Below are positions 1,504 to 57,186 of a stretch of 64,000 nt of DNA, in pieces. Both the position numbers and the translations under genes were made by a program. The first letter of the stretch is position 1. Every line of letters begins with the position of its first letter. The DNA lies in the NCBI GenBank assembly GCA_027972325.1, contig JAPMOS010000011.1:2501-66500 (forward strand). The letters run 5' to 3'. The notes under the pieces were generated by a model. It was not told the DNA's origin. It made no database searches and was given only the letters and a program-made list of their open reading frames with translations. Source of the DNA: Paratrimastix pyriformis (taxonomy: Eukaryota > Preaxostyla > Paratrimastigidae).

Positions 1504-3299
1504 ATGTCAAGACACTTTGCCCCGCCCGGCCGCCCGTTGGAAATGGTTTTTGCTGCTTGGGTAGGCCTTGCCCTGCTCGTCCTTGCTGCTCCTCTCGCTT
1601 CTTGCACTTGCACGGGGAAGGCTTCCATCACAGGAATTGACAGTGGAAACATCGTCCCTGGCACGGGCCCGTTTTCTGGTGCATGTACTTTTGAAATCAA
1701 GCCCGGGTTTCAACTCTCCGATCCTCAGCGAATTGTCATTGGCGTTCGAACGTGGGATTCGGCCAACAAATTCACTCTCAGCGTCTGCCCGCATTTTTTT
1801 CGTGCTGTACTCGCTGACGCTGACCATCGCGTAGGTTTATGACGGACAACCGACCGATGCGGATGCCCTCCTCTATTCAGTGACCCAGGGAAGCGCCAGG
1901 CCATTGGAAGTGCGGGCACGGCTACATTCTTTGGCCACCGTGGTTTTCACTCCCGATGTCCGCCGTCTTCACCCAACCGGAGCGCTCATTCCCTTTTCCA
2001 CTTGGGCGCCACCCACCACTTTTTTAGGCGGCCACGACCGACACATCCCTTGAGGTGTATTTTTACACGAGTACCTTGTGCAGCAACTCGGAAACTCCCA
2101 TGCTGACCGCCCAAGAGGGCACCCTGGGCAGCGGCCCCGGCCCGTACAAGAACACGATGCTGTGCAACTGGGTGGTGGCGCCCAGCTCGATCCCCTCGGG
2201 GTCCAAGCTCAGGTTCCAGATGACGTCTGTCTCCCGAGTCCGCCGCACGCATGAAGGCCTCGTCCAATCTGAATCACCCCGCGCCGCTCCGCTCCGCTCC
2301 CTCCCCGCAGGATGCTGGACACGCACGCCTCGGATGCCTGGGTGCGGCTGCTCGATGCCTCTGACAATAAGCTGGCGGAGTATTGGGGCGTCAGCCCGCC
2401 CCAGCAGGAGATCACCTGCCCCACGTCCTCCTGCAAGGTGGCCTGGCACACGGGCGATGTGGCCCACGCCAACACACACACCGGCTTCGGCATGACCTAT
2501 CGCGTGTCCTCTGGGAGTCCGCTTCTTCTCCTGCTTCTTCTTCTTCTCCCGCTCCTCCTCCTTCTTCTTCTTCTTCTTCTTCTTCTTCTTCTTCTTCTTC
2601 TTCTTCTTCCCCGCTTCTTCCCCCGCTTCTTCTTCTTCTGCACCTCCACCTCCCTCCTCACCACATACTCCCCGTCCCCACCATCCACCCGTTCATCGTT
2701 CACCTTCCCCCCCCCCCCCCCCCAACTCGCCCACGGCGCAGCGACTCCCACTCCGTCACCCACCGCTGTCCCGGCCGGGGGCGACTGGTGGATCTACGTT
2801 GTCGTCTTCGTGTCGGTGCTGGTTGTGCTGATGTTGATCGCGCTCTGCCTGATCTGTCGCTCCGGCGCCTGCCGACGCACCGCAAGGGCCCCCGCGGTCT
2901 GCGGCCCGTGTGATGGTTGGGGAGCGGTGGCTTCAACCCGGCGATCCGGCCAAAATCGTGTGGTCCTGGCATGAGGAGCAGACTCCTTCAAGCTGACTTT
3001 TTTTTCTCCCCTGCGTTTTTCTTGGCCGCTGGTGGTGCGTGCAGCGCTCCTGGGTCACCGACCAGTCCGACACACACATGGGCCCGTCTATCATTGTCAA
3101 GCCTGCAGTCGCCCCGGTGGCACCAGCAGCGCCTGTGTCCGCGTGGCGTGCGCCCGCTCAGCCGGGGTGGGGCGCCACGACCACGACCAGCACTTCCCAA
3201 CGGCAGTCGGGTTCCGACAGCTATTCACGGGGCGGTTACTCGTCTGGCGGATATTCCTCGGGGTATTCATCCGGTTACGCGCACACGCCATACTCGTGA
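1504..3299 (+). CDS. two-CUB-like-domain type I membrane protein, paralog 1
   Basis: First member of the tandem family. The start is the ATG at 1504; an in-frame ATG at 1543 would give a tidier signal peptide (MVFAAWVGLALLVLAAPLAS). The ectodomain has two CUB-like modules. The first includes IVPGTGPFSGACTFEIKPGF and VYDGQPTDADALLYS; the second includes GPGPYKNTMLCNWVVAP and MLDTHASDAWVRLLD. After an intron loaded with TTC repeats come a membrane span (WWIYVVVFVSVLVVLMLIAL) and a Cys/Arg segment. A last exon begins RSWVTD and ends TPYS at the TGA at 3297-3299. Unlike paralogs 2-5 it has no intron at the DSG-N junction. The likely role is surface binding or adhesion, inferred from CUB biology and topology; the ligand is unknown. 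Confidence 0.75.
2519..2636. repeat. TTC/CTT microsatellite inside an intron
   Basis: A pyrimidine microsatellite, mostly TTC, fills the intron between the second CUB-like module and the membrane span of paralog 1. It is followed by a C homopolymer at about 2707-2723. The repeat stays open in the coding frame, but no paralog has such residues, so it is intronic. Confidence 0.8.
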
Positions 3300-3584
3300 T
3301 TTCTTCGGCGTTGACGTTTTTAATTTGTTTCCCTTTGTTGTTCATGGGTTTCGTTGATGAATCTTTTTCGTTTTGTCCCCCCCCCCCCCCCCCCCCCGTT
3401 TATCTTGCTTCGTCCTCCCATTTTAACTTTGATGATATGCGAGACGAAAAGAGGCACCGACCGGCGATGACATTTGGCATGCATTTTTTCTTTGTTTTTG
3501 TTTTCGACTAACAATTGCAGTCTCCTCACATTTGATCGGGGGGGGGGGGGGTATCACCAGGTCTCCGTCTGCTACCCTCAGCGC

Positions 3585-3597
3585 CCTACGAGGCTGC
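3585..3597 (+). promoter_or_regulatory. second copy of CCTACGAGGCTGC motif
   Basis: An exact copy of the 13-mer at 1459-1471, upstream of CUB-like paralog 2. It now lies about 950 bp from that start codon because an 868-bp element has been inserted between them. Confidence 0.35.
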
Positions 3598-3663
3598 ATG
3601 ATATAACACGAGACTGGCGTTTGAAGTCATTTTTCAAATAAACCGGGCAGCGGGCCTCTCCGT

Positions 3664-4531
3664 AGAGTAAAGTCACAACGCCGTTATAACGCCTACAAAA
3701 ACGCGCTGCAACCCGGTGCGACGCGTCGCAACCCCATTTTACCCCATTTTAACCCCATTTTAACCCCTTACAACGCGCTGCCACGCGTTCGGACCGTTTT
3801 TCCCCGTTGCAACATCTGAACATGCATGCGTTTTTCCCCGTTTCAACGCGCTTTTCCCCGTTGCAACGCGCTTTTCCCCGTTGCAACGCGTTTTCCCCGT
3901 TGCAACGCCGTTGGGCCACCTGCCCTGCCCTGCCCGCGGCACATGTTTTCGAGTTACATTAATAGATCATTTTCTGCTTCGACACGATTCATTGCCTGCC
4001 CTTTCTAATGCATTACCACGGGCCCACCCATGTCGTCTTTCTGAGGCTGTCTTCGTGTCCAAAACCATTATTACGTTCATTTTCTCATCGAGCCTCACAT
4101 GGACGAGTTCGGGTTCCTCGTCTCGGAAGTGGAGTGGGGGGAAGTCGTATGAGTGAAGGATGCATCGGAAGAAGATTCCTGGAATTTCGCGGTTGATGGT
4201 TGGGTTGATGCACACGCAACCAAGTTGAAAGAAAGAAGAAGTTTCCCGTCTTGTTTCAACTGCGATGGCCTGTAAACGGGGGCAACGGGTCACAACGGGT
4301 CACAACGGGTCACAACGGGTCACAACGGGTCACAACGGGGTGCAACGGGGTGCAACGGGGTTGCAAACAGTATAACGGCATGCAACGGTGTTGAATGGCG
4401 TTGAGATGGTGTTGAAACGGGTTGTCACGCGGTGCAACGCGGTGCAACGCGGTGCAACGCGGTGCAACGCGTTGGGGCGGAAAAACGCGTTGCGGAAGAT
4501 AGGCGTTGTAACCCCGTTGTGACTTTACTCT
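3664..4531. mobile_element. 868-bp non-autonomous TIR element with internal CAACG repeats
   Basis: The ends are inverted repeats matching at 29 of 32 positions; both start AGAGTAAAGTCACAACG read inward. The trinucleotide CGT flanks both ends (3661-3663 and 4532-4534) and looks like a target-site duplication. The interior has no coding capacity. It is made of degenerate short repeats, such as GTTGCAACGCG on the left and five copies of AACGGGTCAC plus GGTGCAACGC units on the right. Removing the element and one CGT restores a flank like those of paralogs 3 and 4 (CTCCG-GGGTC-AGG before the start codon). It is MITE-like; the 3-bp duplication would fit several superfamilies, and I cannot assign one. 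Confidence 0.72.
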
Positions 4532-4543
4532 CGTGGGTCAGGA

Positions 4544-7075
4544 ATGACCCCCCGACTGCTCGCACGGCGTGACACTTGGTAGCCCGCATATTTGTATGGA
4601 CACTGTTAAACTCACCTCGCGGAGTTGTCCCAACACCCCAAAGGTTTGGTTCGGAAAGTCAGCGGTTGGGAAGATTTACGGCATTCTTTTTTGTCAACAG
4701 ACAGAAGGTTGCTGAATGCGAAAATGGACTTACCCACTTGCGTTTTGACGTTTTGCCTTGGTTGGTTGGGTCTGACAACTCTACGCGGTTCCGTTTTCGC
4801 ACCCCAGGCACCCAAACCGCCTTTCTCGGACGAACTCCGCTCAAGAAGTTCTCAGGCAAAGCCGAAGGGTGCCGCATGTTTTCTGCTCGCGGGGCTTCAT
4901 GCTCCTTGTTCCGGCTGGGGTCCTTGTTGACGACGAGCAAGATGTGCTCAGACCCCTGTTCATCTGTATATCTCGTCGCCGAGGTCATCGAGAAAGGTGC
5001 GGTTTGTTCAATTTCATCGGCACGCGTTTATCTCGCCGCATGAGCGGTGCCTTGCCTGAAATCAAAACCCCCACTTCTTGGCTGGCAGTTGAAGCGAATC
5101 GCCGCAGTTGATGCCCAGAAAGCAATACAACACCCCATTTTTTTGCGCGAAAACCATGCACCACCACAAAGTACACCCAAAATACTTGCTCTCTTTGAAA
5201 ACCCGGTCGTCGGCCGGTTGACCGTTCTTGACAGAGAAGACCGAGAGTCCAATGCTCGGTTCTAGCTACCAAGTGTCACGCCGTGGCTCGTTGTGCTGGG
5301 CTTGCTGCTCCTCGAGGCGCACCTCAGCCAGGGCTACTGCTCTGGCATGACCAAAATCGTGGGGCAGGATTCAGGTTCGTTTTTTTGATGCTTTTTCCTT
5401 GCCCTCATCGACGCCATCTCTAGGCACGATTGCACCTGGCGCTGGCCCCTTCACGGAGGCTTGCTCGTGGGAAATCAAGCCCGGGTTCCAACTGTCTGAC
5501 CCGCAGCGGATTGTCATCGGTGTGCGCACCTGGGACGCCAACGCCAAGTTCACGCTGAGCGTTTATGATGGCATGGCCTCGGACGGCACGCTGCTGTATT
5601 CGTACACGCAGGGTAGCGGTCGCCCGAGGGAGGTGCGTGCTCGGTTGCATTCTCTCGCGACGATTGTCTTCACCCCCGAAGTCTGTTGTGGTTTTCGCGC
5701 ACTGCTGCATCATTCTTCTCCGCACGGATTTTTTTTTGCAACCCCAAGGCCGGAACTGATTCCAGCGCCCTGGAGTTGTATTGGTACACCAGTGTGCTGT
5801 GCAGCAGCTCCGAGACTGTGACTCTGTCGGACCAGGAGGGCTCGATCGGCAGTGGCCCCGGCCCCTACAAGAACACCATGGCCTGCAACTGGCTCGTTGC
5901 CCCCGGCGGCGTCCCGGACGGGTACCACGTCGCATTCAAGATCACGTCTGTACGCGCATAGTTTTTCCTCTCTTTCAGAGTGTTTCATCCCCCCTCCTTG
6001 TGTGCTCTTGTTGCTCCCCCTCCCCTCCCCTCCCCCCCACCCCCCGGGATATGGTTGATCCGACGTAGGATGCTCGACACGGCCGCAGATGATGCTTACG
6101 TGCGGATTTCTAATGGGAACGGCGAAAAGCTTGCTCAGTACAGCGGTGCCGGTATTCCCAGTACGGAGATTGGCTGCCCCACCGCCAGCTGCCAGGTCCG
6201 CCCTCGCTGTCGTCGTCACCCCAATCGGCATCCTTCTCCTCCCCGAATGAATCGTTCGCTCACCCTCCCCTCCACCACCCTCTCTGTTCAGGTCTATTGG
6301 CACACGGGTGAGGTGAGCAACGGCAACATGCACACGGGTTTCGCCCTGCAATACTACCTGTCCAACGGTTGGTCGTTCCACTCCTCTGCCATGCCCTGTC
6401 ATGCCCTGTCATGCCCTGTCATGCCCTGCCATGCCCTGCCATGCCCTGCCAGGCCCTGCCAGGCCCTGCCATGCCCTGGCCCTGCCATGCCCTGCCATGC
6501 CCTGCCATGCCCTGCCATGCTCTGCCATGCTCTGCCATGCTCTGCCATGCTCTGCCATGCTCTGCCATGCTCTGCTCTGCTCTGCTCTGCTCTGCTCTGC
6601 TCTGCTCTTCCAAACAATGCTTCATGATCAGGGGAGTGGAAAAATGTGTGCGTTGTGTCTTGGTGGTGCCTTTGTGGCACGAACGGTTTCCTCCAACCTA
6701 TTTTGTTCACCGCCCATCCGCCCACCACAGGTGACGTTACCCCCGTTCTGGTGGACTTTCCCATCTGGGCCCTCGTCGTCGGCATCGTGTTTGTGGTCCT
6801 CATCGTGCTCGGTTTGATGGGGTATTGTGTCCGCACGGTTTTGAAAGAAACCTGCTGTCCCGGCCGCGGCCGTAGCAGCTCAAGCTCTTCTTCTGGGAAA
6901 ACCGTCTGTCTCTTACGCTCGCGTCGGCCTCGGGTTCGGGGCGTGGCGTGCGTGGCGTGGCGGGCCCATACTTACCCTTCTTTCTTTCTCCCTTCCCTCT
7001 CCTCCGCAGCGTTCATGGGATACGGACAGTTCGTACCGCCACCACCACAGCAGCGAGTCAATCAGCTACTCGTAG
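4544..7075 (+). CDS. two-CUB-like-domain membrane protein, paralog 2, interrupted by a transposon
   Basis: The ATG at 4544 begins a signal peptide matching paralogs 3 and 4 (MTPRLL, then VVLGLLLLEAHLSQG), but a 723-bp TIR element splits codon 7. Beyond the element all exons are intact: GTIAPGAGPFTEACSWEIKP; the second module through MLDTAADDAYVRISNGNG; VYWHTGEVSNGNMHTGF; the membrane span exon (FPIWALVVGIVFVVLIVLG); and a last exon beginning RSWDTD and ending SYS at the TAG at 7073-7075. Exons 2-5 are almost identical to paralog 4, which points to recent duplication or gene conversion. The gene is either inactivated at its signal peptide or relies on splicing the element out. The intron before the membrane exon holds a large 10-bp minisatellite. 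Confidence 0.72.
4563..5285. mobile_element. 723-bp internally deleted copy of a TIR DNA transposon
   Basis: Perfect 21-bp inverted ends (4563-4583 and 5265-5285; outer bases CACGGCGTGACACTTGG) bound the element. The 5-bp sequence GCTCG flanks both sides (4558-4562 and 5286-5290) as a target-site duplication. A second copy lies at 56127-57186. The two match almost base for base, except that this copy lacks 337 bp after the shared CACCCCAGGC. No transposase is visible. A CAC start and a 5-bp GC-rich duplication recall Transib elements, but that is a weak inference. The insertion is inside the signal-peptide codons of CUB-like paralog 2. Confidence 0.88.
6391..6610. repeat. 10-bp minisatellite (ATGCCCTGCC/ATGCTCTGCC) in an intron
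   Basis: About twenty tandem copies of a 10-mer, ending in repeats of CTCTG, fill the intron before the membrane-span exon of CUB-like paralog 2. Paralog 4, nearly identical in its exons, has an ordinary short intron here, so the array arose after those exons last shared sequence. Confidence 0.88.
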
Positions 7076-7424
7076 CCAAGACCCCGATCCCCCCGGTGTA
7101 TTTGCCATCTTTTTCAATTTGTTCGTTGTTTTTCGCTTTCACTTTTGCGGTGGCCTTCCACTCTTTTGGGCTGCTGACGGGCGTGGACCACCATGCTCAA
7201 CCATCTTCCCACCCACCCACTCACCCACCCACCTGCAGTGTCATATCCCCTCGTGCGTCTTTCAATTGTGTTTTGTTTTGTTGGTGTTCGGATTCGGATG
7301 TTAACTCCTTGTCCTGGGGGGGGGGGGGGGGGGTATTCGTGTTGTTCTGAGGACGGAGGGGAGGAGGAAGGAAGAAAGGAAATGATACAATGCGAAAAAC
7401 CAAAGGCGCGCGACTGCAGCCTCG
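7076..7424. other. intergenic stretch between CUB-like paralogs 2 and 3
   Basis: I see no gene. It contains a TCACCCACC-type short repeat and a G homopolymer of about 17 bases (7317-7334). A GCAGCCTCG near 7420 is the reverse complement of part of the motif found upstream of paralogs 1 and 2. Confidence 0.5.
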
Positions 7425-7476
7425 TTACTTTCAAAAAAACTTGCCGGCGGGTCGCTGGTGTCCGCGGTCGTTCAGG
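7425..7476 (+). promoter_or_regulatory. conserved 5' block before the start codon of paralog 3
   Basis: The roughly 50 bp before the ATG at 7477 are conserved with those before paralog 4 (9925-9976). Both have TTTCAAAA, then CCGGCG, GTCGC, TCCGCGG and TCGTTCAGG directly before ATG. Paralog 2 shows the same block split by the 868-bp element. It is a likely core promoter or 5'UTR, or recent common descent. Confidence 0.4.
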
Positions 7477-9354
7477 ATGTCCCCGCGACTGCTCGTTGTG
7501 CTGGGCTTGCTGCTCCTCGAGGCGCACCTCATCCAGGGCTACTGCTCTGGCATGACCAAAATCGTGGGGCAGGATTCAGGTTTTGATGCTGCCGCTTTTT
7601 TTCCCCCCTGACCTCCTCTCCAGGCACGATTGCACCTGGCGCTGGCCCCTTCACGGAGGCTTGCTCGTGGGAAATCAAGCCCGGGTTCCAACTGTCCGAC
7701 CCGCAGCGGATTGTCATCGGTGTGCGCACCTGGGACGCCAACGCCGCCAAGTTCACGCTGAGCGTTTACGATGGCCTGATGTCGGACGGCACGGTGTTGT
7801 ATTCTTACACAGAATACAACAGTCGTCCGGGGGAGGTGCGTGCGAGTTTGCATTCTCTCGCGACGATTGTCTTCACTCCTGAAGTCTGTTTTATCCCCCT
7901 CAATCCTCTCATCTTTTTGTTCTTCCCTCTCAACCAAGGTCGGAACTGACTCCAGCACCCTGGAATTTTATTGGTACACCAGTGTGCTATGCAACAACTC
8001 CGAGACTGTGACTCTCTCGGACCATGAGGGCACGATCACCAGTGGCCGCGGCCCCTACAATGAAGACATGGCCTGCAACTGGGTCGTTGCACCCGGCAGC
8101 ATCCCAGACGGGTACCATGTTGCATTCAAGTTCACGTCCGTTCTTAATTATTTTTTTTTCGCGGGGGTGTATGTTCGAACGCCGTTGTTCGGCCATTCCG
8201 GGGCTCTGGTGGCGTGGTCTTAGGATGCTTGACGCCGTTGATTATGACACGTACGTGCGGATTTCCAACGGGAACGGCGAGAAGTTGGCTCAGTACGCCG
8301 GCGTCGATATCCCCAGCAAGGAGATTGGCTGTCCCACCGCCGCATGCCAGGTCCGCTCGTCGTCCTCTAAAGCAGACGGAACGTTGTCCCCCAGGTCTAT
8401 TGGCACACGGGGGATGTTGAGTACGACAACTCTCACAAGGGATTCACCCTGCAATATTACCTTTCCGATGGTCGGTCCTCCTCCTCCTCCTCCTCCTCCT
8501 CCTCCTCCTCCTCCTCCTCCTCCTCCCCGCCCTCAATTCCATGTGGTCAATCGGTTCATAACACGAACGGTTCCCACAAACACACACCCTCCCTCCTCCC
8601 TCCCTCCCTCCCTCCCTCCTCCCTCCCTCCCTCCCTCCCTCCCTCCCTCCCTCCCTCCCTCCCTCCCTCCTCCCTCCTCCCTCCCTCCCTCCTTCCCTCC
8701 CTCCTCCCTTCCCTCCCTCCCCTTCCCTCCCGTAGGTGACGTCGCCCCCGTTGTGGTGTACTTCCCTTCTGGGCCATCATCATCGTGTTTGTGGGCATCC
8801 TCCTGCTCCTTGGCGCCCTGAACTGCCTCCACAAGTTCTGCGGGATGGACTGCTGGGGCGCCGACAGCAACAGCATGTGCAGCGGTGGCGCCAGCTGCTG
8901 CAGCAACAGTCTGTGCAGCGGCTGCGGCTGCTGCAATTCTGACAAGAACAGCAGCAACAGCAACAGCAGCAGCAGCGCCAGCAGCGCCAGCAGCGCCAGC
9001 TCTTCCGCTCGGAAGAAATCCGTCTGTCGCTTTCTCTTGGATCGGGGGGGGGGGGGGGGGGGCGGGGGGCGATGGGGCTGGGGGATGGTGCTGATCGATG
9101 GGCCGGTCTGCCTCTGTGCGTGTCTGTGGGCCACCTGTTGTCTTGCTCACTCCCCGGTCCTGGTGCCTTGGCGGACACTGCTTTCAGGCGCTTTGCGGGT
9201 CCTTTTCGGGCACTTGCGTCTGTCTGGTGGGCCTGACCGCTGCTCATCCCTCTCCCTTCCCCCTCTCCTGCAGCGTTCATGGGATACCGACAGTCCGTAC
9301 CATCACCACGACCATCGCCACAGCAGCAGCAGGGAGATGAGCAGATACTCGTGA
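7477..9354 (+). CDS. two-CUB-like-domain membrane protein, paralog 3, with an apparent frameshift
   Basis: Signal peptide MSPRLLVVLGLLLLEAHLIQ from the ATG at 7477. Two CUB-like modules follow (VYDGLMSDGTVLYSYTEYN; GTITSGRGPYNEDMACNW; MLDAVDYDTYVRISNGNG; VYWHTGDVEYDNSHKGF). The membrane exon starts DVAPVVVYFP, but one base seems to be missing near 8766. The hydrophobic segment (WAIIIVFVGILLLLGALN) and the long Cys/Ser/Asn-rich tail are in another frame. The last exon, RSWDTD to SRYS with the TGA at 9352-9354, is intact. Since tail and terminal exon are conserved, this could be a young null allele or a base error. It is more diverged than paralogs 2 and 4, yet its first intron is almost identical to that of paralog 4. 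Confidence 0.7.
8476..8741. repeat. TCC and CCCT microsatellites in an intron of paralog 3
   Basis: A run of TCC triplets followed by about 150 bp of CCCT/CCTC repeats fills the intron between the VYWHTG exon and the membrane exon. This is the same intron position that carries repeat expansions in paralogs 1 and 2. Confidence 0.85.
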
Positions 9355-9924
9355 CCAGGTGACCAGGACCCCGATCCTCCCGCCTCCCCGCCGAGTACCC
9401 ACCCACTCCCTCCATCCCTTCCTCCCTCCCTCCAGAATATACTCGATTTGTTCATTTTCCCCCTCCTTCGATGGCGAATTCATTTTTTAGTTTTTTGTTA
9501 ATTTGTTCAGTGTTTGCTTTCACTTCCCAGTGTTCCTCTCTCCTGGGCGTCCAGCGTGGGACTCGTGAACAGTCCCCCCCCCCCCCCCTGATTTCCTAAT
9601 GAACTTGTTTCCAATTTATTGTTCCGTTAATTTTTATTTTTCACGGGGATACAGTTCCTTTATCTAATTTGCCTTTTTTTTTTGACTCACTCAAAAAAGG
9701 AGAACTCTTGTTCCCATCGAGTTTGCGTAGTGGCGCCTCCGCAAGGTGATTTTGGCCCACACAATGCATAACTCGCACTGTTTGTTCTTGTTTTGACGGG
9801 CGGGCTATCGTGAGAGGCCCGCTTTTCCCATTCGTGGGGGTCGACATAGAATGAAAATTGAGGTGGAATGAGGGGCGAAGAATGAGAAAACTCCACCAAC
9901 CCCGCCGAACGAGGGATGTCATTT
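9355..9924. other. intergenic stretch between CUB-like paralogs 3 and 4
   Basis: No gene is seen. There is a C homopolymer near 9577-9590 and several T-rich runs. A minus-strand open frame at 9641-9922 has no recognisable motif or splice support. Confidence 0.5.
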
Positions 9925-9976
9925 TTCAAAACCGTCCGTCTCCGGCGAAGTCGCAGGTCTCCGCGGGTCGTTCAGG
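9925..9976 (+). promoter_or_regulatory. conserved 5' block before the start codon of paralog 4
   Basis: Matches the block at 7425-7476: TTTTTCAAAA, CTCCGGCG, GTCGCAGGTC, TCCGCGGGTCGTTCAGG, then ATG. It also serves as the intact reference for the flank disrupted in paralog 2. Confidence 0.4.
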
Positions 9977-11478
9977 ATGTCCCCCCGACTGCTCGTTGTG
10001 CTGGGCTTGCTGCTCCTCGAGGCGCACCTCAGCCAGGGTTACTGCTCTGGCATGACCAAAATCGTGGGGCAGGATTCAGGTTTTGATGCTGCCGCTTTTT
10101 TTCCCCTGACCTCTCCTCTCCAGGAACGATTGCACCTGGCGCTGGCCCCTTCACGGAGGCTTGCTCGTGGGAAATCAAGCCCGGGTTCCAGCTGTCTGAC
10201 CCGCAGCGGATTGTCATCGGTGTGCGCACCTGGGACGCCAACGCCAAGTTCACGCTGAGCGTTTATGATGGCATGGCCTCGGACGGCACGCTGCTGTATT
10301 CGTACACGCAGGGCAGCGGTCGCCCGAGGGAGGTGCGTGCTCGGTTGCATTCTCTCGCGACGATTGTCTTCACCCCCGAAGTCTGTTGTGGTTTTCGCGC
10401 ACTGCTGCATCATTCTTTCTCCGCACGGATTTTTTGCAACCCCAAGGCCGGAACTGATTCCAGCGCCCTGGAGTTGTATTGGTACACCAGTGTGCTGTGC
10501 AGCAGCTCCGAGACTGTGACTCTGTCGGACCAGGAGGGCTCGATCGGCAGTGGCCCCGGCCCCTACAAGAACACCATGGCCTGCAACTGGCTCGTTGCCC
10601 CCGGTGGCGTCCCGGACGGATACCACGTCGCATTCAAGATCACGTCTGTGTGCAGTGTTTTTTTCTTCTGGATGTTGCACTCTGCCTTCCGCCCCCGGTG
10701 ACGACGTAGGATGCTCGACACGGCCGCAGATGACGCGTACGTGCGGATTTCCAACGGGAACGGCAATAAGCTTGCTCAGTACAGCGGTTCCGATATCCCC
10801 AGTAAGGAGATTGGCTGCCCCACAGCCAGCTGCCAGGTCCGCTGTCCTCATCACCCAGAGACAAATTTCTTTCCTCCTCCTCCTCCTCTCACAAATTTCT
10901 TTCCTCCTCCTCCTCTCGACTCACCGCCCCAGGTCTATTGGCACACGGGTGAGGTGAGCAACGGCAACATGCACACGGGTTTCGCCCTGCAATACTACCT
11001 GTCCGATGGTCAGTCGGAACGCCCCCCCCCATCTTCTCCTCCCCTCCTTCTCATCTTCTCTGATTTCGCCCTCCTCCCCACCCACACCCCAGGTGACATC
11101 ACCCCGGCTACCGTGGACTTCCCCGTGTGGGCCATCATCGTCATCGTCTTCGTGGGCGTCTTCGCGGTCCTGTTCTTCTTTGGGTGTATCCGCAAGCTCT
11201 GCAAAGTCAGCTGCTGCGATTCCGACAGCAGCAGCAGCAGCAGCAGCTCGAGCGCCGCAACCGTCTGTTCCGTGACCTTTCGCTCTGCCCTTGCTGCTCA
11301 GTGCGGTCGGGCGGGGCGGTGACGATAACTGTTTCTGTGCGATTCTCTGGCTTTCACTTCATGCTGTCCTCCCTCATCTTCCTCCCTCTCTCTTCTCTCT
11401 CCGCAGCGTTCGTGGAATACGGACAGTACCTATCACCACCACCACCACAGCAGCTGGGAGTCGAGCAGCTATTCGTGA
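9977..11478 (+). CDS. two-CUB-like-domain type I membrane protein, paralog 4 (best-resolved copy)
   Basis: Seven exons add up to 333 codons plus stop: 9977-10079, 10124-10380, 10447-10643, 10710-10836, 10933-11008, 11093-11262 and 11407-11478. The order is signal peptide (VVLGLLLLEAHLSQG), CUB-like module 1 (TIAPGAGPFTEACSWEIKP; FTLSVYDGMASDGTLLYSY), module 2 (VTLSDQEGSIGSGPGPYKN; NGNGNKLAQYSG; YWHTGEVSNGNMHTGFALQY), membrane span (VWAIIVIVFVGVFAVLFFFG), then a Cys-containing juxtamembrane segment and a run of nine Ser. The tail is RSWNTD, a His stretch and SSSYS. Introns start GTTTTG, GTCTGT, GTCTGT, GTCCGC, GTCAGT and GTCTGT. CUB modules usually bind proteins or sugars outside the cell; the partner here is unknown. 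Confidence 0.82.
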
Positions 11479-11684
11479 ACAGGATACCAATCCTCAACGA
11501 TATTCTAATTAACATTCGTATTTCAAGCAGTGTAAATTTTCCCCCCGGACTTGTCATTGCCCCTGTTTTTTCTTTTTGTTTTGTTTCAGACGCAACAAAT
11601 GTGAAACCGAGCGGCATTGTTTTCCGGCGTGAGGCAGCTCAACACCGGGCCCAGGTTGCTGTTTCCTCTCCAGTGTCGTGTTCG

Positions 11685-13604
11685 ATGCGCCGCTCTGTGC
11701 TCCTTGCATTTCTATTGTGGGGGGCACATCTCTCCTTGGTCAATGGAGATTGCGGTGGCTCCATTCAAATCACAGGCGGGGATTCGGGTCCGCTCCTCCC
11801 GTCGTTTTAGCCTCTCCTCATTCCCTTGCTCTTTCAGGCTCCATATCGCCCGGAGTTGGTCCTTACTCTGGTGCATGTATATGGGAGATTCGTCCGAGCA
11901 TAGCACTTTCAGACCCTCAGCGATTAGTGATCGGCGTCCACTCTTTAGATACCGTCGCAAATTATTCGCTCCAGGTCTCCGAAACCCCACCGTGTTTGGT
12001 ACATGCCACCGGCTACTGTAGGTCTACGATGGGAACACCACAGAGACCCTCTTGTATAACTACACTTCCGGCAATGCAAAACCCGGGGAGGTGCGCGCCC
12101 GGCAGCACACTTTTGCCACCATCGTTTTTATTCCTGCTGTCTGTGTGCCAAACTCCCCTGCGATGATTGCTCATCAAGTCGGTTTCCCCCCGGCTCTACA
12201 GGCCACCGCCACCAATGTCTCCCTTGAGCTCTACTGGTACACGAGCGTCCTTTGTGGGGCCAGTGTCGTCCGGCTGGCAGACCCCGAGGGCAACATGACC
12301 AGTGGCCCGGGACCCTACAAGGATGGCATGCTGTGCGACTGGGTTGTTGCGCCGACCTCCATACCCAAGGGTTATCACGTCGCCTTCCTGGTCACGTCTG
12401 TCGACCTCCCCCTCTCCCTCCTTCCTTCCTTGCCACCCATCACATCATACACTCTGCCTCCCTCAACCACCGCAGTATGTTGGATACCCATTCGGACGAC
12501 GCCTATGTGCAAATCAACGATGCGAGTGACTTCCTGGTGGCCAAGTTCGCCTGCACCAACCTGCCCTCGGCCGAGATCGGCTGCCCCACGGAGTACTGCA
12601 AGGTCTACTGGCACACGACCGAGGTGAGCCCCGCCAACACCCACCGCGGGTTCGCCATGCGGTACTACCTGTCCGACGGTCTGCCTCCCCCCACCCATCG
12701 ACCCATCGACCCACCCGCGCCCACCCACCCACCCACCCGCGCTGCCACCCGTCCAGGTGGTGAAGGGTGTAGTGAAGGGGTGTGGTGAAGGGGTGGTGGT
12801 GGTGGGCCGAAGGGGACAGTGACAGTGACGACAGGGACAGAATCATTCGGGGGGTTCGGGAGGAAGGACCTGGGGAGATCCCCGTGGTGGGGTGGGGAGC
12901 TTTGCTTTGCAGTGCCGCTCAAAGAGCGGCCGCCCACCCGCGCCATGCCACCCACCCGGGGCCCCGCCTGACCACCTGACCCATCTGCATCCCGATGAGC
13001 ATCTCATCTCTCCTCACCTGCCACACACCCCACGACCGCCCGCCCGCAGGCCCGGTGGCGTGGCGCCCTCGGGGCGCCGCCTGACATCCTGATGGGGATC
13101 TCATCTCATCTCTCCTCCCCTGCCCCACCCGCCCACAGGCCCTGTGACGCCCTCGGGGCTGCACCTGACCATCTACATCCTGATGGGGATCTCGTCGGGG
13201 CTGTTTCTCTTCTTCCTGACCTGCTGCTCGTTCCGCTACTGGCGCAAGCACCCCAAGTGCTCCTCCCACTGGTGGTGGGACTGCTGCGTGGACTCCTGCT
13301 GCGACACCCTGTGCCCCTGCTGCCAGCCGGTGTGCCGGCAGAAGCCGCCCCGGGTCCGTCCAGCCCCCCGCGTCACCCCCCAAACCCCTCCCAGCGCATG
13401 GAACTTCCGCCCTCACCCCTGTCTCCGCCACACGTTCCTCGCGGCTTGTGCCCTGGGTTGGTCCCCCCCCCCCCCCCCCCCCCCCCCTTCTCATCTGCAC
13501 CCGACATCCCCCTCCCACCATGGCAGTCCTGGGAGACGGACGGGTCTCCATCACCCGCCGGCAGTCGCCCGGCCGGCCTTGCGCCGGCGGACGCCTACTC
13601 CTGA
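11685..13604 (+). CDS. two-CUB-like-domain type I membrane protein, paralog 5
   Basis: Signal peptide MRRSVLLAFLLWGAHLSLVN from the ATG at 11685. Module 1 reads SISPGVGPYSGACIWEIRP and VYDGNTTETLLYNYTSGN; module 2 has GNMTSGPGPYKDGMLCDW and MLDTHSDDAYVQINDASD. It lacks the intron before VYWHT that paralogs 2-4 have. A 460-nt intron then leads to a membrane span (HLTIYILMGISSGLFLFFL) and an unusually Cys/Trp-rich cytoplasmic region (HWWWDCCVDSCCDTLCPCC). The last exon starts SWETDG and ends DAYS at the TGA at 13602-13604. The long intron carries two decayed copies of the start of the membrane exon, near 12954-13018 and 13050-13115. This copy is clearly more diverged than 2-4. Confidence 0.75.
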
Positions 13605-14089
13605 ACCGGCCCACGGCAGATGCGATGTGATGTGAGGGGGATAGAGACCACCGTTTGAGCGCGGCTCTGTGACGACGGGTGACCGTCCCTTTGCCGTCTT
13701 GGCCAGGCGTGTTCGTGTTTTTTGATTTGCGTCTGAGTGTTTGGTCGCGATGATGGACGCATCTCCTTCCCCTCCTCTCCCTCGTGGTCTGATCTCCCCC
13801 TCCCCCGGAGTGGATGCCCATTCCCACTTTGCTCCATGGAGTTTCTTCCCCCGTTGAGTCCTCCCCAGACAGGAACGGACTCCTCGCCCCACCCCCATTT
13901 TTCCCTTTCCATTCATCGAAAGGTCGAGCGCCTTTTGTGTCTGTTCGCACATTTTTTGCCGCCTTTTTTTTATCATTGGCCTTGATATTTCGATGGCAGG
14001 CGAAAGGACCATCTGACATTTTTTGCTTGTGGCTGTCCCGTGCGTCACCGCTGGAGCAGTTCGCCAGCCACCAACAGCCCGACAGAGCA
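13605..14089. other. intergenic stretch before the phosphoesterase gene
   Basis: No gene is seen. The frame that leads into the phosphoesterase is open upstream to 13814, but it has no conserved sequence before the ATG at 14090. Long minus-strand open frames here overlap repeats and CUB introns and are not credible. Confidence 0.5.
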
Positions 14090-15024
14090 ATGGAAGCCAG
14101 AATGATCACCAAGGATGTGGGCCATTTGATGAACCGCGATACGTGGCTTATCAGCGACACCCACTTTTCTCACAAGAGAATCTCCGAACTGGTTCCCGCA
14201 AGACAAGCGGCAGTGGCCGCAGCCAATGCGCCGTCGCATGACGAATTTCTCACAGCTCAGTGGAACAGTGCCGTCCAACCCGACGACACCGTTTTGTGTC
14301 TGGGCGATTTTGCTTGGGGCGGCATCGAGCAGGCGAGCAAACAAGTCCAGGGCAAGAAAATTTTGATCCTCGGAAACCATGACCGAGGACGTTCTTCGTA
14401 CCTGTCAAAGGATTGGCTGGAATGTATTGCCAGTCCCATCGTTTTTATCGACGGCCTTCATTTCGCACATCTCCCCCTGGTTCAACCCCCGCCGCAAGCA
14501 CAAGCTGCTCCTGCCGCCAAGCATGCGGTTCCTCCTGCCGCCCTGATTTGTGATGTCGATGTCTGTCGGCCTCGCCTCGCCCGCTCGCCCAACCTCACCC
14601 CCCGCCCCTCCTCCTCCTCCTCCTCCTCCTCCAGGGTGTCCGGATTCTGTTCTCCCACTATGCGCTCTTCGATGCGGTGCCCGAACAGGTGGCCCACGAC
14701 AACGAGATCCGGCCCACCATTGAGCTCCTCGAGCGTCTTTATCGCACCTTCCAGTGCCAGGTCAACATCCACGGGCACATCCACGACAGTCTCAGCTCCT
14801 TCCCCGACGCGATCAACGTCTCGGTGGAGCGGATCGGGTTTCGGCCGGTGCGGCTGGGCGAGCTGCTGGACGGGTGGAGGAGGCGGGTCGCCGCCCGGAC
14901 GGGGGTGTCGACTCCTCCCCCCGCCGGCATCTCCCCCGCCACCGCAGCAGACGCACAACCTGCTCTTCCAGCCCCCATTCCAGCCTCCCCTGCCCCCACC
15001 CCCGCGGACGCACCCGCCCAGTAA
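14090..15024 (+). CDS. calcineurin-like metallophosphoesterase, COG4186-like
   Basis: The ATG at 14090 starts exon 1. Metallophosphoesterase motifs appear in order: ISDTHFSH (metal-binding D and H), GDFAWG, LGNHDRG, then in exon 2 FSHYALFD and NIHGHIHD. An intron near 14549-14634 ends in a TCC microsatellite and CTCCAG; exon 2 resumes GVRILFSHYAL. The body ends after NVSVERIGFRPVRLGELL, followed by an Ala/Pro-rich tail to the TAA at 15022-15024. The ISDTHF, GDF, GNHD, SHY, HGH sequence of motifs is that of small bacterial-type phosphoesterases. The substrate is unknown. Bacterial origin by transfer is an inference, since the gene now has an intron. Confidence 0.78.
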
Positions 15025-15157
15025 CAACTGAACCGAAGAAGACCTGAACTGTGTCCTGGTCGACCAATGATACAGAGAAAACCAAAAGATGCCAAGAGAA
15101 ACCTCGGAGGGGGGGAGGAGAGGGAGGGGGGGGAGGAGAGGGGGAGAGGGGGGAGAC

Positions 15158-16263
15158 TCATCCGAACTCAAGCCCGCCCTCGCGCACCTGAAACGGGTAC
15201 CGGACCGAGCTGGGCAGGCACTGCTGCTGCCCGAGGCTTGTCGGCGGGCCCCACCGGCCCCGGGTATACTCCGCCAGCGCCTGCTCGGTGACACTGAAGT
15301 CGCAGCTGAACGCGGCCTCGATGGGCGGGGGGAAGGTCGTCCCGGTGCGGCTCTGCCCGGGGAGGAGCAGGGCGGCCAAGGACATGGGCGGGGCGGGCGG
15401 GACGGCGGTCCGCTGCAGATCGAGCCGGTATGTGACGGCGGACTCCCAGGGCGGGTCGGCACGCAGCGGGAATTTGAACCGGGGGCGCGTCCCAAAGCAG
15501 ACGAGGTGGTGCCGCCGGGCGAACTCCGCCAGAAGGGAAAATGCCCGGGAGGAACACCTGGGGAATAGTGGAGAGCACCAGAGGAGGGGAGGGGGGAGGG
15601 AGGGAGGAGAGAGAGAGGTTGTTTTGCGGATGGGAAGGTCGATGTTGCAGAATGGTGTGCCCGTGAGTGTGTCTCCACCCGGGGATGCAGACCGGTCCGA
15701 GAACGGGGTGCCCCGCTCGTTCCAGTGGAAGGCCGTGACCGAGTCGACGCACAGCAGCCGAAGGGCGGGCCGCTGGGCGAGCAGCACGGGGATGAGATGC
15801 ACCGCGGCAAGAAAATGTTCGGCCGTGGGGCAGCGGATGACCAGAAGCCGGTGCAGACTCGCCTCGACCTCGGCCTCGGCTTGGTCGGGTGGACATGCCG
15901 TGCATCGGGTCAGTCGATCGTGCAACAACTGGCGGAGCCGAAGAATTTGAAGGCGCTGGTCGCAGTCGAAAAACAGGGCCGTCGCGCCAATGCCATCGTA
16001 TGGCTCGGAGAGCAGAAAAGTGACCAGGACGTTGAGCAGCAATTCGGTTTTCCCGCTCCCCGCAGAACCCACAACCTCAACGACGTCACCGTCGAGCCCC
16101 TGCGGCACCTCGTGGTCGAGCGCTTTGATGCCTGTATGAATGGGGCGCACCTGAAGAGCATTCCACCACCAGAAAGTCAAGGCTGCGGTCAAACCTGATG
16201 TGCACGAGTGAAAACCTCGAGGGCTGTTTCATCTGGGGTCAAGAGTTGCTGCCAATTCAGCAT
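15158..16263 (-). CDS. XRCC2: XRCC2-like RAD51 paralog, DNA repair ATPase
   Basis: Exon 1 (16263-16195) encodes MLNWQQLLTPDETALEVF. A 44-nt intron starting GTTTG leads to exon 2 at 16150. The Walker A is VGSAGSGKTELLL in the context GDVVEVVG, as in XRCC2. FFDCDQRLQILRLRQLL matches the XRCC2 IDTDYHFDMLRL region, and LRLLCVDSVTAFHW is the Walker B strand and DSLSAFYW-like motif. A probable intron lies around 15550-15690. The C-terminal part (FSLLAEFARRHHLVCFGTR; YPFQVREGGLEFG at the end) mirrors the human SGVEFC end. XRCC2 works with RAD51 paralogs in homologous recombination in the nucleus. It diverges from the TPGS1-like gene with only 32 bp between start codons. Confidence 0.82.
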
Positions 16264-16295
16264 GTCTCTTGCTGCTGGTGACACGTGTCGAACGG
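16264..16295. promoter_or_regulatory. 32-bp divergent spacer between XRCC2 and the TPGS1-like gene
   Basis: The two start codons (ATG at 16263 on the minus strand and at 16296 on the plus strand) are separated by 32 bp. Promoter and 5'UTR elements must overlap the neighbouring coding sequences, or the two genes share a bidirectional promoter. No obvious TATA box is present. Confidence 0.4.
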
Positions 16296-17555
16296 ATGTC
16301 AGAATCGGCAGAACCAAGAGCGACTCCCATCACCAGGCAGTTTTGGATGGGCACAAAACGGCTCGCTTTCCGTCTATCTGAAGAGGAATATCTTGATAGA
16401 TATGGAGTTGGAGCATACTTAAAAGATGTGGCGACGTTACTTCTCGAAAATCGCCCGGACGATCCTTGCGCATTCATCGAACAGTATTTTCGAAATGCAA
16501 TGCAGCAAGAAGGGTCTAACGACATAATGCGAGCGTACCGGTCAGAGTCTTCCTTCTTCCTGTTTTCAATTGCCAAACTTGTCGTGATGAATGATAAACC
16601 GCAGATATCTTAGGCTTGCTCCTTTTTCCATGCCAACCTTTCTGGACAATGTTGTCTCTGCATTTACAAATCTAACCACGCAGCACAACCTTGCCTCATC
16701 AGACTTTCTCCAGCTTTTACGAATGCTGTGTGAAGATCTTCCTCCTGGTCTGCCCCCCCCCCCCCTTCCCCCTTCCCCCTTCCCCGGAGTCGCTCACACT
16801 CTGGCAAGGTATCACCGACCAGCTTCTCTCCCCTTTGGAGACGAGGGCGCCATGCAGTATTAGCTTCGAAGAGGTCTCTCCTCCTGGATGAAGCTCTCAC
16901 TCACCCCCTCGCATCATCACAGTTTGTCACCTGGGTCAAACGAGTGTTAATATTCGAAGGTCTTGTGTTTCTTCCGGTTTCAACAAGCGAGCGTGCCCCA
17001 TACCCGCAGGCCTTTTCAAAGATGGCATGTCCAGGTGGAGAGCAGCAGCCCAGCCCCTCTCTGTTGACGCAGTCCTCCGGGAACTGCTCGGGTCCGTCTA
17101 CGGTGTGTGTGCGCGCGCGCGCACGTTTCCGGTTCGGATCGATGTGATCTTTTTTACTCTCGTTTTGGGAAGGTGGAGGGGAGGGGTGCCAACTCTTTTT
17201 TTCTGATTTTCACTTCTTGAAACCCCCAGATCTGCTTTCCGCGTTTCTGGATCTTCTCCACAACGCGATAAATTGTTACCAGACGCAGCGATCCTCGGCC
17301 TGGCCCTCATTAACGCAGTTCCAGATCCGCTGGCTCTCTCAGAAACGCGCGAGAATGCTGGATCCGTGCTGCTGCGACATGCTCCGCTCCAAGGCACCCC
17401 TTCTCGATGATTTTTGGCTTTTTTGTTCTTGGTTTTCTGCTTGCCCTATGGTCGAACAGCGTGTATTGACCACAGCGGGGCGATTTTTCTGGACTTCAAG
17501 ATTTGCGCAATTCTCCAAGGGCAGAATTGACGAACGCAGGCATGTTGACCGCTAA
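16296..17555 (+). CDS. TPGS1: TPGS1-like tubulin polyglutamylase complex subunit
   Basis: Exon 1 holds YLKDVATLLLENRPDDPCAFI followed by EQYF, which matches the N-terminal RIIa-like helices of TPGS1 (RPEEPIAFLAHYF). A clean intron (16541-16613, GTCAGAG to TCTTAG) joins YR to LAPFSMPTFLDNVVSAF, equivalent to LRLAHHSQRAAFNNNVSVAY in the human protein. Later exons read LTLWQGITDQLLSPLE, FVTWVKRVLIFEGLVF, FKDGMSRWRAAAQPLSVDAV and DLLSAFLDLLHNAINCY, separated by GTCTG-type introns. TPGS1 scaffolds the TTLL1 polyglutamylase on ciliary and neuronal microtubules. The 3' end is uncertain: the frame stays open to 17555 and would overlap the next start codon by 14 bp, so a last intron or an earlier end is likely. 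Confidence 0.62.
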
Positions 17556-18410
17556 AATGTTGACGTTTTTGCTCTTCCTTCTGGGCTGCCTTGCACAGAC
17601 CTTTCCAACATGTTCGGGAGTCAAAAAGATTCGTGGGCTGGACGAGGGGTCCTTCGGGTCTGGCGACGGACCATTCGAACCGAATTGCCTTTGGGAGATC
17701 CAGCCCGGTTTCGCTCTCTCTGATCCACAGCGTCTTGTGATTGGATTTAACGACTGGATCCATTCAGGTGACTTCAATCTGACTGTCTGTCGTCTCAAGA
17801 AAAACAACCAAGAAACATTTCGGTTTTAGGTCTACGATGGTGTGCCGGGTAATGGAATTCTCCTATACACCATGCAGAGCAAGGACCCTGCTCCTCGGGA
17901 GGTGCGTGCTCGATATCACACATTGGCAACAGTCATCTTCCAACCCAGCCGAGGCTCCACTGGCGGCTTTGAGGCATACTGGTACACGAGCGCGCTTTGC
18001 AACTCAACTCGCGTGGTCCTCAACAAGACCAACGGGTTGTTGACGAGCGGAAAGGGGCCCTATAAGAACTCGCAAAAGTGCTATTGGACTGTGGCGCCAC
18101 CTCTTCCCAAAGGGACCCATTTGGAGTTCGACCTTCGGTCTGCTGCTCGGTTCTCGTGCTTCTTTCGAACAACACATCGCGCCGCAGAGACCTTGATACG
18201 CATGCTGATGACTGCTACGTTCGCATCGACGACGAAAACGGGGTGCGGGTGGCCCAGTATTGGGGAACGGCACGGCCCGGTGGCCCCATCCGCTGCCCAA
18301 CGTCGTCGTGCGATGTCTACTGGCATACGGGAGTGGTCGATCCGTGGAATACGTTCACCGGGTTCTCCATGGAATACTCGGTGGTTTCGGGTCAGTGCTT
18401 GCTATTCTAG
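17542..18410 (+). CDS. two-CUB-like-domain protein, paralog 6, apparently secreted
   Basis: Start at the ATG at 17542 (a second in frame at 17557), signal peptide MLTFLLFLLGCLAQTFPTC. Module 1 (FGSGDGPFEPNCLWEIQPGF; VYDGVPGNGILLYT) and module 2 (LLTSGKGPYKNSQKCYW; LDTHADDCYVRIDDENG; VYWHTGVVDPWNTFTGFSM) align with the other paralogs. There are only two clear introns (both starting GTCTG). The introns after DSG, after FTPE and before VYWHT are absent. After VVSG the frame ends in QCLLF at a TAG, and no membrane exon or SWxTD tail is found downstream. It therefore looks secreted, or truncated, and is separated from the main array by four unrelated genes. Confidence 0.68.
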
Positions 18411-18741
18411 AAATGACTCATCGGCTCGCCCGCCATAGATCTAGACTCCGATGACTTTCAAGTGCCTCGCTCAGACTATCACGAGCGGGTCCATCACGGA
18501 CTTCGCCCGTAAGGAATGCCCTCCTGGTCGCGCAAGAAGCCAAATGGCTGCTGCCATCAACATCAGGACACGTTGTGAATGAATCGTCAGCAGTTGTGTA
18601 AATCTTCCGCAAAAGAAAGGGAAATAACAACAGATCACGAAGAACAGCCCGTGTCAACACAAAATTCGAACTGAGTTTTCACCGCTGTCACCCCGGCGTT
18701 CCTCTTTTCGATTTTTTTCGGAGGCAAAGGACCCTTTCACT
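18411..18741. other. intergenic stretch before CCT8
   Basis: No gene and no trace of the membrane and tail exons expected after CUB-like paralog 6. A minus-strand open frame at 18418-18660 has a hydrophobic start, but I cannot support it. Confidence 0.45.
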
Positions 18742-56126: not shown

Positions 56127-57186
56127 CACGGCGTGACACTTGGTAGCCCGCATATTTGTATGGACACTGTTAAACTCACCTCGCGGAGTTGTCCCAACAC
56201 CCCAAAGGTTTGGTTCGGAAAGTCAGCGGTTGGGAAGATTTACGGCATTCTTTTTTGTCAACAGACAGAAGGTTGCTGAATGCGAAAATGGACTTACCCA
56301 CTTGCGTTTTGACGTTTTGCCTTGGTTGGTTGGGTCTGACAACTCTACGCGGTTCCGTTTTCGCACCCCAGGCGAGACATTTTCCTCCTGCCAACCTTGC
56401 CAGGTGCTTCACCGCCAGAAGAGAAATTAATCCTGCTTGCTTTTTCCGAATTTCCTTCCAGTACATTGGTGATGTTCACCGTTTCACATCAAGAAATTCT
56501 TGAAGACATCGTTGCGGTGGATCGGCAAGAGCTTCGGCTTTGTTCGTGTCGTTTCTCAGGTCATTAACAGATGAATTGAAACATCTCCGGAACAGCTCCA
56601 CATTCTATCTTTCGGTTGAAGGAGGTTGTTCTTCAATGTTATTGGCAGACACATGAGCGCGATCTTGTCTCAACTCTTTTCCAACACGTCTATACCTCAC
56701 CCACAAAAGCACCCAAACCGCCTTTCTCGGACGAACTCCGCTCAAGAAGTTCTCAGGCAAAGCCGAAGGGTGCCGCATGTTTTCTGCTCGCGGAGCTTCA
56801 TGCTCCTTGTTCCGGCTGGGGTCCTTGTTGACGACGAGCAAGATGTGCTCAGACCCCTGTTCATCTGTATATCTCGTCGCCGAGGTCATCGAGAAAGGTG
56901 CGGTTTGTTCAATTTCATCGGCACGCGTTTATCTCGCCGCATGAGCGGTGCCTTGCCTGAAATCAAAACCCCCACTTCTTGGCTGGCAGTTGAAGCGAAT
57001 CGCCGCAGTTGATGCCCAGAAAGCAATACAACACCCCATTTTTTTGCGCGAAAACCATGCACCACCACAAAGTACACCCAAAATACTTGCTCTCTTTGAA
57101 AACCCGGTCGTCGGCCGGTTGACCGTTCTTGACAGAGAAGACCGAGAGTCCAATGCTCGGTTCTAGCTACCAAGTGTCACGCCGTG
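56127..57186. mobile_element. 1060-bp copy of the CACGGCGTGACAC TIR transposon
   Basis: It has the same perfect 21-bp inverted ends as the copy at 4563-5285 (here 56127-56147 and 57166-57186), with CCAT on both sides as a 4-bp duplication (or a 5-bp one with a lost base). It contains 337 bp absent from the other copy, around 56374-56710; the shared parts differ at only a base or two. No transposase is present. One short plus-strand frame (MDLPTCVLTFCLGWLGLTTL) resembles a signal peptide but is probably chance. It separates the p52 coding exons from whatever 5' exon they use. Confidence 0.88.

Follow-up and report, generated by a model that had tools for sequence, protein, structure and literature searches.

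CUB domains are best known from extracellular proteins of animals. Four cysteines in two pairs are common in the classical subtype, although not required, and the second pair usually takes the Cys3-Cys4 position; a calcium-binding subtype carries Glu/Asp/Asp calcium ligands. Neuropilin, PCPE-1, and cubilin additionally carry coagulation-factor, NTR, or long CUB-array parts, respectively, and Neto1/2 consist of two CUBs, one membrane span, and a short tail, plus an LDLa module. The subject of this study is a putative family of CUB-containing membrane proteins (P1 to P9) of the anaerobic flagellate Paratrimastix pyriformis. Six members lie in a 64,000-nucleotide stretch of contig JAPMOS010000011.1 (positions 2,501 to 66,500, forward strand), hereafter the window, to which all coordinates refer. 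An earlier note, made from the letters of the window, had proposed six paralogs with one common plan: signal peptide, two CUB-like modules, membrane span, Cys/Ser-rich juxtamembrane part, and short conserved tail.

The 56.06-Mb assembly was searched for further members, and the family was found on contigs C13 (which holds the window), C157, and C267. The genome paper gives 56.6 Mb, 60.94% G+C, Nanopore plus Illumina reads, and gene models that used RNA-seq intron hints (PMC10703272).

Fold of the two modules

Sequence and model data support a CUB fold for module 2: Pfam, PDB-sequence, profile, and structure results concur on a CUB beta-sandwich. In the Pfam scan (PF00431, curated cut-off 21.4 bits; P2 and P3 left out), module 2 exceeded the cut-off in P4 (30.1 bits), P6 (26.2), P7 (25.4), and P8 (24.2), so that the search of P4 proposed in the earlier note did return a CUB domain. 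Module 1 probably has the same fold, judging from its profile and the P6 model. Its profile matched the CUBs of a metagenomic protein with a score of 54.4 over 106 columns (probability 96%); shuffled controls reached at most 16.2 (n = 30) and the reversed control 20.0. The alignments behind the predicted structures of P1 and P6 were shallow, with 4 and 14 rows, and single exons make up ten of the 14. Multi-CUB chains align with the predicted P6 structure via both modules in 15 of 50 rows. Predicted structures other than CUB-like had been named as a possible refutation; the P6 model matches CUB chains, module 2 foremost. The description of both modules as CUB-like is supported for module 2 and less directly for module 1. 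Module 1 as a repeat of module 2 was considered and rejected, as only 33 columns align (probability 68%).

The four-cysteine arrangement of the classical subtype was not found: module 1 has two cysteines, and module 2 has the first pair and an atypical CPTxxC pair. At the level of sequence, across five rows, module 2 shows two invariant aspartates (D189 and D194 in P4) with no third in a like place, and module 1 has no conserved set resembling the Glu/Asp/Asp calcium ligands. No non-CUB family scored above its cut-off in the nine sequences scanned, except for a CUB relative in the metagenomic protein P0005.

Gene models, copy number, and plan

The gene models were built by hand by comparing paralogs (Table 1). 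Read from its second Met, P6 equals the deposited PAPYR_2879 exactly, last exon included, which backs the splicing of the hand models. The P1 model matches the deposited protein PAPYR_2875 (P0001) through exon 5 and then diverges; PAPYR_2875 skips the RSW exon and, judged by eye, its end enters the stretch of a terminal inverted repeat (TIR) element upstream of P2. The hand model is considered likelier because the skipped exon holds the family tail. PAPYR_5215, the deposited P7, continues in a different frame past the frame change, and PAPYR_5216, the deposited P8, differs from the hand model at the N-terminus; PAPYR_6264 is a further deposited protein from the three contigs. Protein searches, within their length and candidate limits, found no separate deposited proteins for P2 to P5; gene-model corrections are suggested for these four of the six window genes.

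Table 1. Family members and other features of the window
Feature	Position	Strand	Exons	Remarks
P1 (PAPYR_2875)	1504-3299	+	n=6: 1504-1782, 1835-1957, 2028-2224, 2311-2516, 2742-2896, 3045-3299	404 aa (amino acids), hand model; full plan; tail RSWVTD...YS
Second TIR element	3664-4531	.		just upstream of P2; 32-nt arms, 91% complementary
P2 remnant start	4544-4562	+		ATG and first codons; ends in target-site duplication copy GCTCG (4558-4562)
TIR element in P2	4563-5285	.		723 bp, 21-bp perfect TIRs
P2 body	5286-7075	+	5287-5374, 5424-5680, 5749-5945, 6069-6195, 6292-6367, 6731-6903, 7010-7075	second GCTCG copy 5286-5290; tail RSWDTDS...SYS
P2/P4 tract	P2 5424-5945; P4 10124-10643	+		exon 2/intron 2/exon 3 99/94/99% identical
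P3	7477-9354	+	7477-7579, 7624-7883, 7939-8135, 8224-8350, 8395-8470, 8736-9021, 9274-9354	frame change near 8766 in membrane-span exon
P4	9977-11478	+	n=7: 9977-10079, 10124-10380, 10447-10643, 10710-10836, 10933-11008, 11093-11262, 11407-11478	333 aa, intact; module 2 Pfam CUB
P5	11685-13604	+	n=7: 11685-11787, 11838-11974, 12022-12138, 12202-12395, 12476-12678, 13139-13353, 13527-13604	348 aa, intact; without Pfam CUB match
Metallophosphoesterase	14090-14542	+		29.1 bits, above cut-off
Rad51-like ATPase frame	15161-16228	-		below cut-off
RIIa-like frame	16212-16610	+		below cut-off
P6 (PAPYR_2879)	17542-18512	+	17542-17784, 17830-18137, 18188-18390, 18439-18512	275 aa; deposited start 17557; two modules, no membrane span, no tail

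Searches of the genome with the P4 protein and with the ectodomains of P6 and P1 all led to one set of nine loci: C13 holds six of them, C157 has P7 and P8, and C267 has P9. Three loci thus lie beyond the window, and the counts are lower bounds because the search does not model introns. Matches between paralogs were far from chance (P4 on P6, E 8.5e-42; P6 on P4, E 1.9e-24). The six paralogs of the window were located as had been claimed, five side by side and P6 beginning 3.9 kb past P5; the family runs on to 18512, past its supposed end at 18410. The P4 query also gave many weak matches at the span and Ser-rich stretch. The idea that these represent a shared tail on unrelated receptors was dropped, since they look like low complexity, although they were not examined one by one. 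The P4 and P1-ectodomain queries matched C485 and C46 weakly (E 0.014-0.089), and both contigs hold separate CUB stretches. An exon-wise Pfam CUB search of the genome found C485, C444, and C135 (8 candidates scored).

Among deposited proteins (in part only the best ~8000 candidates), only P. pyriformis proteins and one metagenomic four-CUB protein were retrieved. The absence of other Preaxostyla from these candidates is a weak negative, given the candidate limit and the outcome with P0004 as query, which found nothing but itself and missed deposited paralogs with 42-49% identity to it. In a literature search whose scope excluded preprints and most subscription journals, we met no report on a CUB domain in P. 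pyriformis, and "CUB domain" combined with metamonads gave nothing bearing on the nine loci; of the 19 places in the genome paper that contain "cub", the 12 covered concern cubane and journal DOIs (PMC10703272).

A strong hydrophobic span is present in P1, P4, P5, and P8 (19-residue windows of 2.1-3.5). At the N-terminus, a 19-residue hydropathy window above 1.6 occurs only in P1 and P6 among the six proteins computed. A signal-like N-terminus together with a span, found in P1, P4, and P5 in the window and in P8 on C157, fits the suggested surface location. As to the one plan claimed for all six window genes, it applies to P1, P4, and P5, and fails for P2 (signal codons interrupted), P3 (frame change), and P6 (no span or tail). 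The juxtamembrane part of P1 has cysteines yet is not Ser-rich, contrary to the Cys/Ser-rich description; P5 has 11 cysteines after both modules and five N-glycosylation sequons.

The tail motif RSWxTD was found in seven of the nine loci (P1 to P5, P7, and P9; the tail exons of P3, P7, and P9 were read from DNA), ending in YS in six of the seven and in YA in P7. When the genome was searched for the exact tail pattern, the only match not belonging to the family was C2:820742, where the three forward frames, read by eye, showed no CUB and no family plan. The pattern took only CGN and TCN codons and did not include the final YS; because it misses P1 and P5, other tails may have been missed as well.

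Function and rival explanations

The explanation we favor, at about an even chance, is that the nine loci form a P. pyriformis family of type-I membrane proteins acting as receptors or adhesins, which would bind particles or bacteria. The architecture is shown by the sequences: the outer part consists of two tandem CUB modules, and a single membrane span leads into a juxtamembrane stretch that contains Cys and is mostly rich in Ser, and then into a brief cytoplasmic tail, which begins with RSWxTD and mostly ends in YS. At the surface, ligand would be bound via module 2, the more freely evolving one, with module 1 as a conserved scaffold; the Cys cluster may be lipid-modified, and the RSWxTD tail may link all members with a single partner in the cytosol. 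A small number of variants would be maintained by tandem duplication, conversion, and loss. The likeliest ligand class would be a bacterial or particle surface, as in food capture and uptake. According to the genome paper, P. pyriformis was grown in polyxenic culture (PMC10703272), and prey binding appears the likeliest role because a free-living flagellate grown with bacteria is combined with a receptor or adhesin plan. A fuller version, in which a metamonad, outside the animal lineage, built its own tandem-CUB receptors with a shared signalling tail and a conversion-varied module 2 for food or self recognition, is considered doubtful.

Several points weigh against the receptor or adhesin reading. 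In Pfam, P1 falls just short of the CUB cut-off (19.0-19.3 versus 21.4 bits), P5 and P9 have no match, module 1 is under the cut-off in every paralog scanned, and the exon-wise genome search missed the whole nine-locus family. Module 1 alone has no PDB sequence match at E up to 10, and its predicted local distance difference test (pLDDT) values are ~53-78 in the P6 model and low in the P1 model. Signal peptides were judged by eye, and the prey-binding role draws on plan and lifestyle only. P6 and P8 lack the RSW tail and four of the nine copies (P2, P3, P7, and P9) look damaged as assembled, so the family does not establish that all parts are strictly necessary.

Such damage could mean that most of the family is decaying, with duplicates of no lasting function and one or two copies in use, which we regard as unlikely. 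The signal codons of P2 are cut by a TIR element flanked by the target duplication GCTCG; the remnant start reads MTPRLLARRDTW, followed by a stop within the element, and the P2 body is open to the tail, yet upstream of 5287, as far back as the stop TAG at 5263, it lacks a start codon in frame. Both blocks of the element are 99-100% identical at five other places in the genome, one of them in the window, which points to a young insertion family. P9 has an internal stop and a frame change, P6 and P8 are shortened, and P3 and P7 carry frame changes. Short homopolymers (CCC, GGGG) coincide with or adjoin the latter, which may be assembly errors; past its frame change, P3 remains open through the span and Cys/Ser part in another frame. 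The loss of parts had been noticed before, and the missing span and tail of P6 agree with it. Against general decay, the ectodomains of P1, P4, P5, P6, and P8 stay open, and most differences are silent even between P2 and P4, whose ratio of nonsynonymous to synonymous substitution rates (dN/dS) is 0.16.

As for the TIR elements themselves, the P2 copy is short of ~335 bases present in five near-identical copies. The longest listed open reading frame overlapping the copy at 56133-57185 has 128 aa, and the element family looks non-autonomous. Between the arms of the second TIR element, CAACG-type units are repeated. The decayed copy P9 (L035) harbors very long simple repeats of the GAT/ATG type.

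The dN/dS test between paralogs gave finite values in 25 of 28 pairs, all below 1 (0.16-0.49). The ten pairs among P2, P3, P4, P7, and P8 cover this whole range, and the pairs outside this set are at or near silent saturation. Most introns differ between paralogs, in agreement with the contrast of conserved exons and changing introns described before; by sequence, the exons are under constraint. A role in self or mate recognition, with divergent module 2 copies as compatibility labels mixed by conversion, seems improbable to us. It would fit that dN/dS is higher in module 2 than in module 1 in all seven close pairs split by module, and that the only windows with a ratio of nonsynonymous to synonymous proportions (pN/pS) above 1, two of 43 overlapping ones, lie in module 2, with a peak of 1.17 at its start. 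That peak was matched in 158 of 1000 shuffles, so positive selection is not significant, which tells against the favored reading as well; all finite whole-ectodomain ratios stay below 1, and the data come from one assembled genome.

P2 and P4 share a conversion-like tract, judging by the introns; it is of the near-identical kind reported earlier and would fit such mixing. Intron 2 shows zero substitutions at 65 aligned sites, and introns 1, 3, and 4 differ at 17/44, 27/66, and 52/96 sites; outside the tract, differences are found in exons 6-7 and in introns 1 and 3-6. Few sites differ in exon 1 (1/88) and exon 5 (2/76), so exon identity alone cannot mark the ends of the tract. Calling conversion from exons alone was rejected, as the 224-base run was reached in 189 of 10000 shuffles; with introns included the case is clear (0 of 10000 shuffles), a test favored by faster intron evolution. 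Two branches of the tree are starred (P1+P9 and P7+P8), and those to P6 and P9 are long. The active, expanding family once suggested is borne out in part: nine loci, the conversion-like tract, and recent change speak for it, yet four of the nine copies look damaged as assembled, so birth and death is the better description.

Equally improbable is a Neto-like accessory subunit, whose CUB pair would hold another protein of that membrane, with the tail as its anchor. The plan resembles that of Neto in its CUB pair, single span, and short tail, Neto chains are among the fold matches, and one common tail under varying outer parts would suit a shared inner partner; no LDLa module was found, Neto is not the best fold match, and the span or the tail is absent from several copies. 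That the proteins are lectin-like and secreted or shed, P6 being the active form, as its hydrophobic N-terminus, two modules, and missing span in both hand and deposited models would allow, is very unlikely given the strong spans of P1, P4, P5, and P8 and the tail exon retained in seven loci.

Neighboring genes and splice sites

Three other frames lie between P5 and P6 (Table 1). Upstream of P1, a frame at ~361-1195, read by eye, has Cys and basic residues after a hydrophobic stretch and showed no CUB.

In the hand models of the nine loci, counted without the final introns of P3 and P7, 36 of 44 donor sites read GTCNG, and neither GTA nor GTG occurs at any; the count leans to GTCNG, since this consensus guided the choice wherever several donors were possible. 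Independently of the models, the window contains GTCTGT 83 times, more often than any other of the 60 anagrams (mean 32) and compared with ~26 in 20 simulations; for GTCCGC no enrichment is seen (54 versus 55). The usual U1 small nuclear RNA (snRNA) starts with ATACTTACCTG. Eight U1 snRNA candidates scored 50.8-60.2 bits, under the Rfam cut-off of 69.5; the six that were read, one on the minus strand, all start ATACAGACCTTG. In the copies read (loci L060-L065, on C212, C231, C349, C441, C482, and C495), the 5' end is ATACAGACC. The candidate 5' end is complementary to 5' splice sites of the GTCTGT type, and its complement includes GGTCTGTAT. U1 and the donor consensus thus appear to have changed together, which is possibly more surprising than the CUB family itself, and a thin literature search met no prior report of it. 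For the oxymonad Streblomastix, the intron data in PMC1501061 give A, U, and G at donor positions +3 to +5; the change may therefore be specific to the Paratrimastix side.

Comparison with known systems

If the favored reading is true, this membrane-anchored tandem-CUB family of a metamonad, whose members share a cytoplasmic motif, would allow one to examine how receptor-like architectures arise outside animals, and could offer a way into the recognition of prey or self in a group with little-studied surface biology. Within the CUB superfamily (PF00431), module 1 differs by its single Cys pair, and module 2 by a second pair, CPTxxC, near the domain end instead of the usual position. In the same genome, multi-CUB genes on C485 (~843 kb) and C46 (~226 kb), compared from DNA stretches, have a CSWVIAP-like part resembling the start of module 2; they are nearer to common CUBs and stand outside the nine-locus family. 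Neuropilin a1a2, PCPE-1 CUB1-CUB2, and cubilin, the last also found by PDB-sequence search, likewise have tandem CUBs and are the top Foldseek matches at ~20% identity; these are animal proteins, and the P. pyriformis family lacks their coagulation-factor, NTR, and long CUB-array parts. Pfam found neither LDLa nor coagulation-factor domains in the nine sequences, which does not suggest membership in the Neto or neuropilin families. Neto1/2 share a similar plan and are among the fold matches, whereas the P. pyriformis proteins are without LDLa and show no sequence kinship to them beyond the CUB fold.

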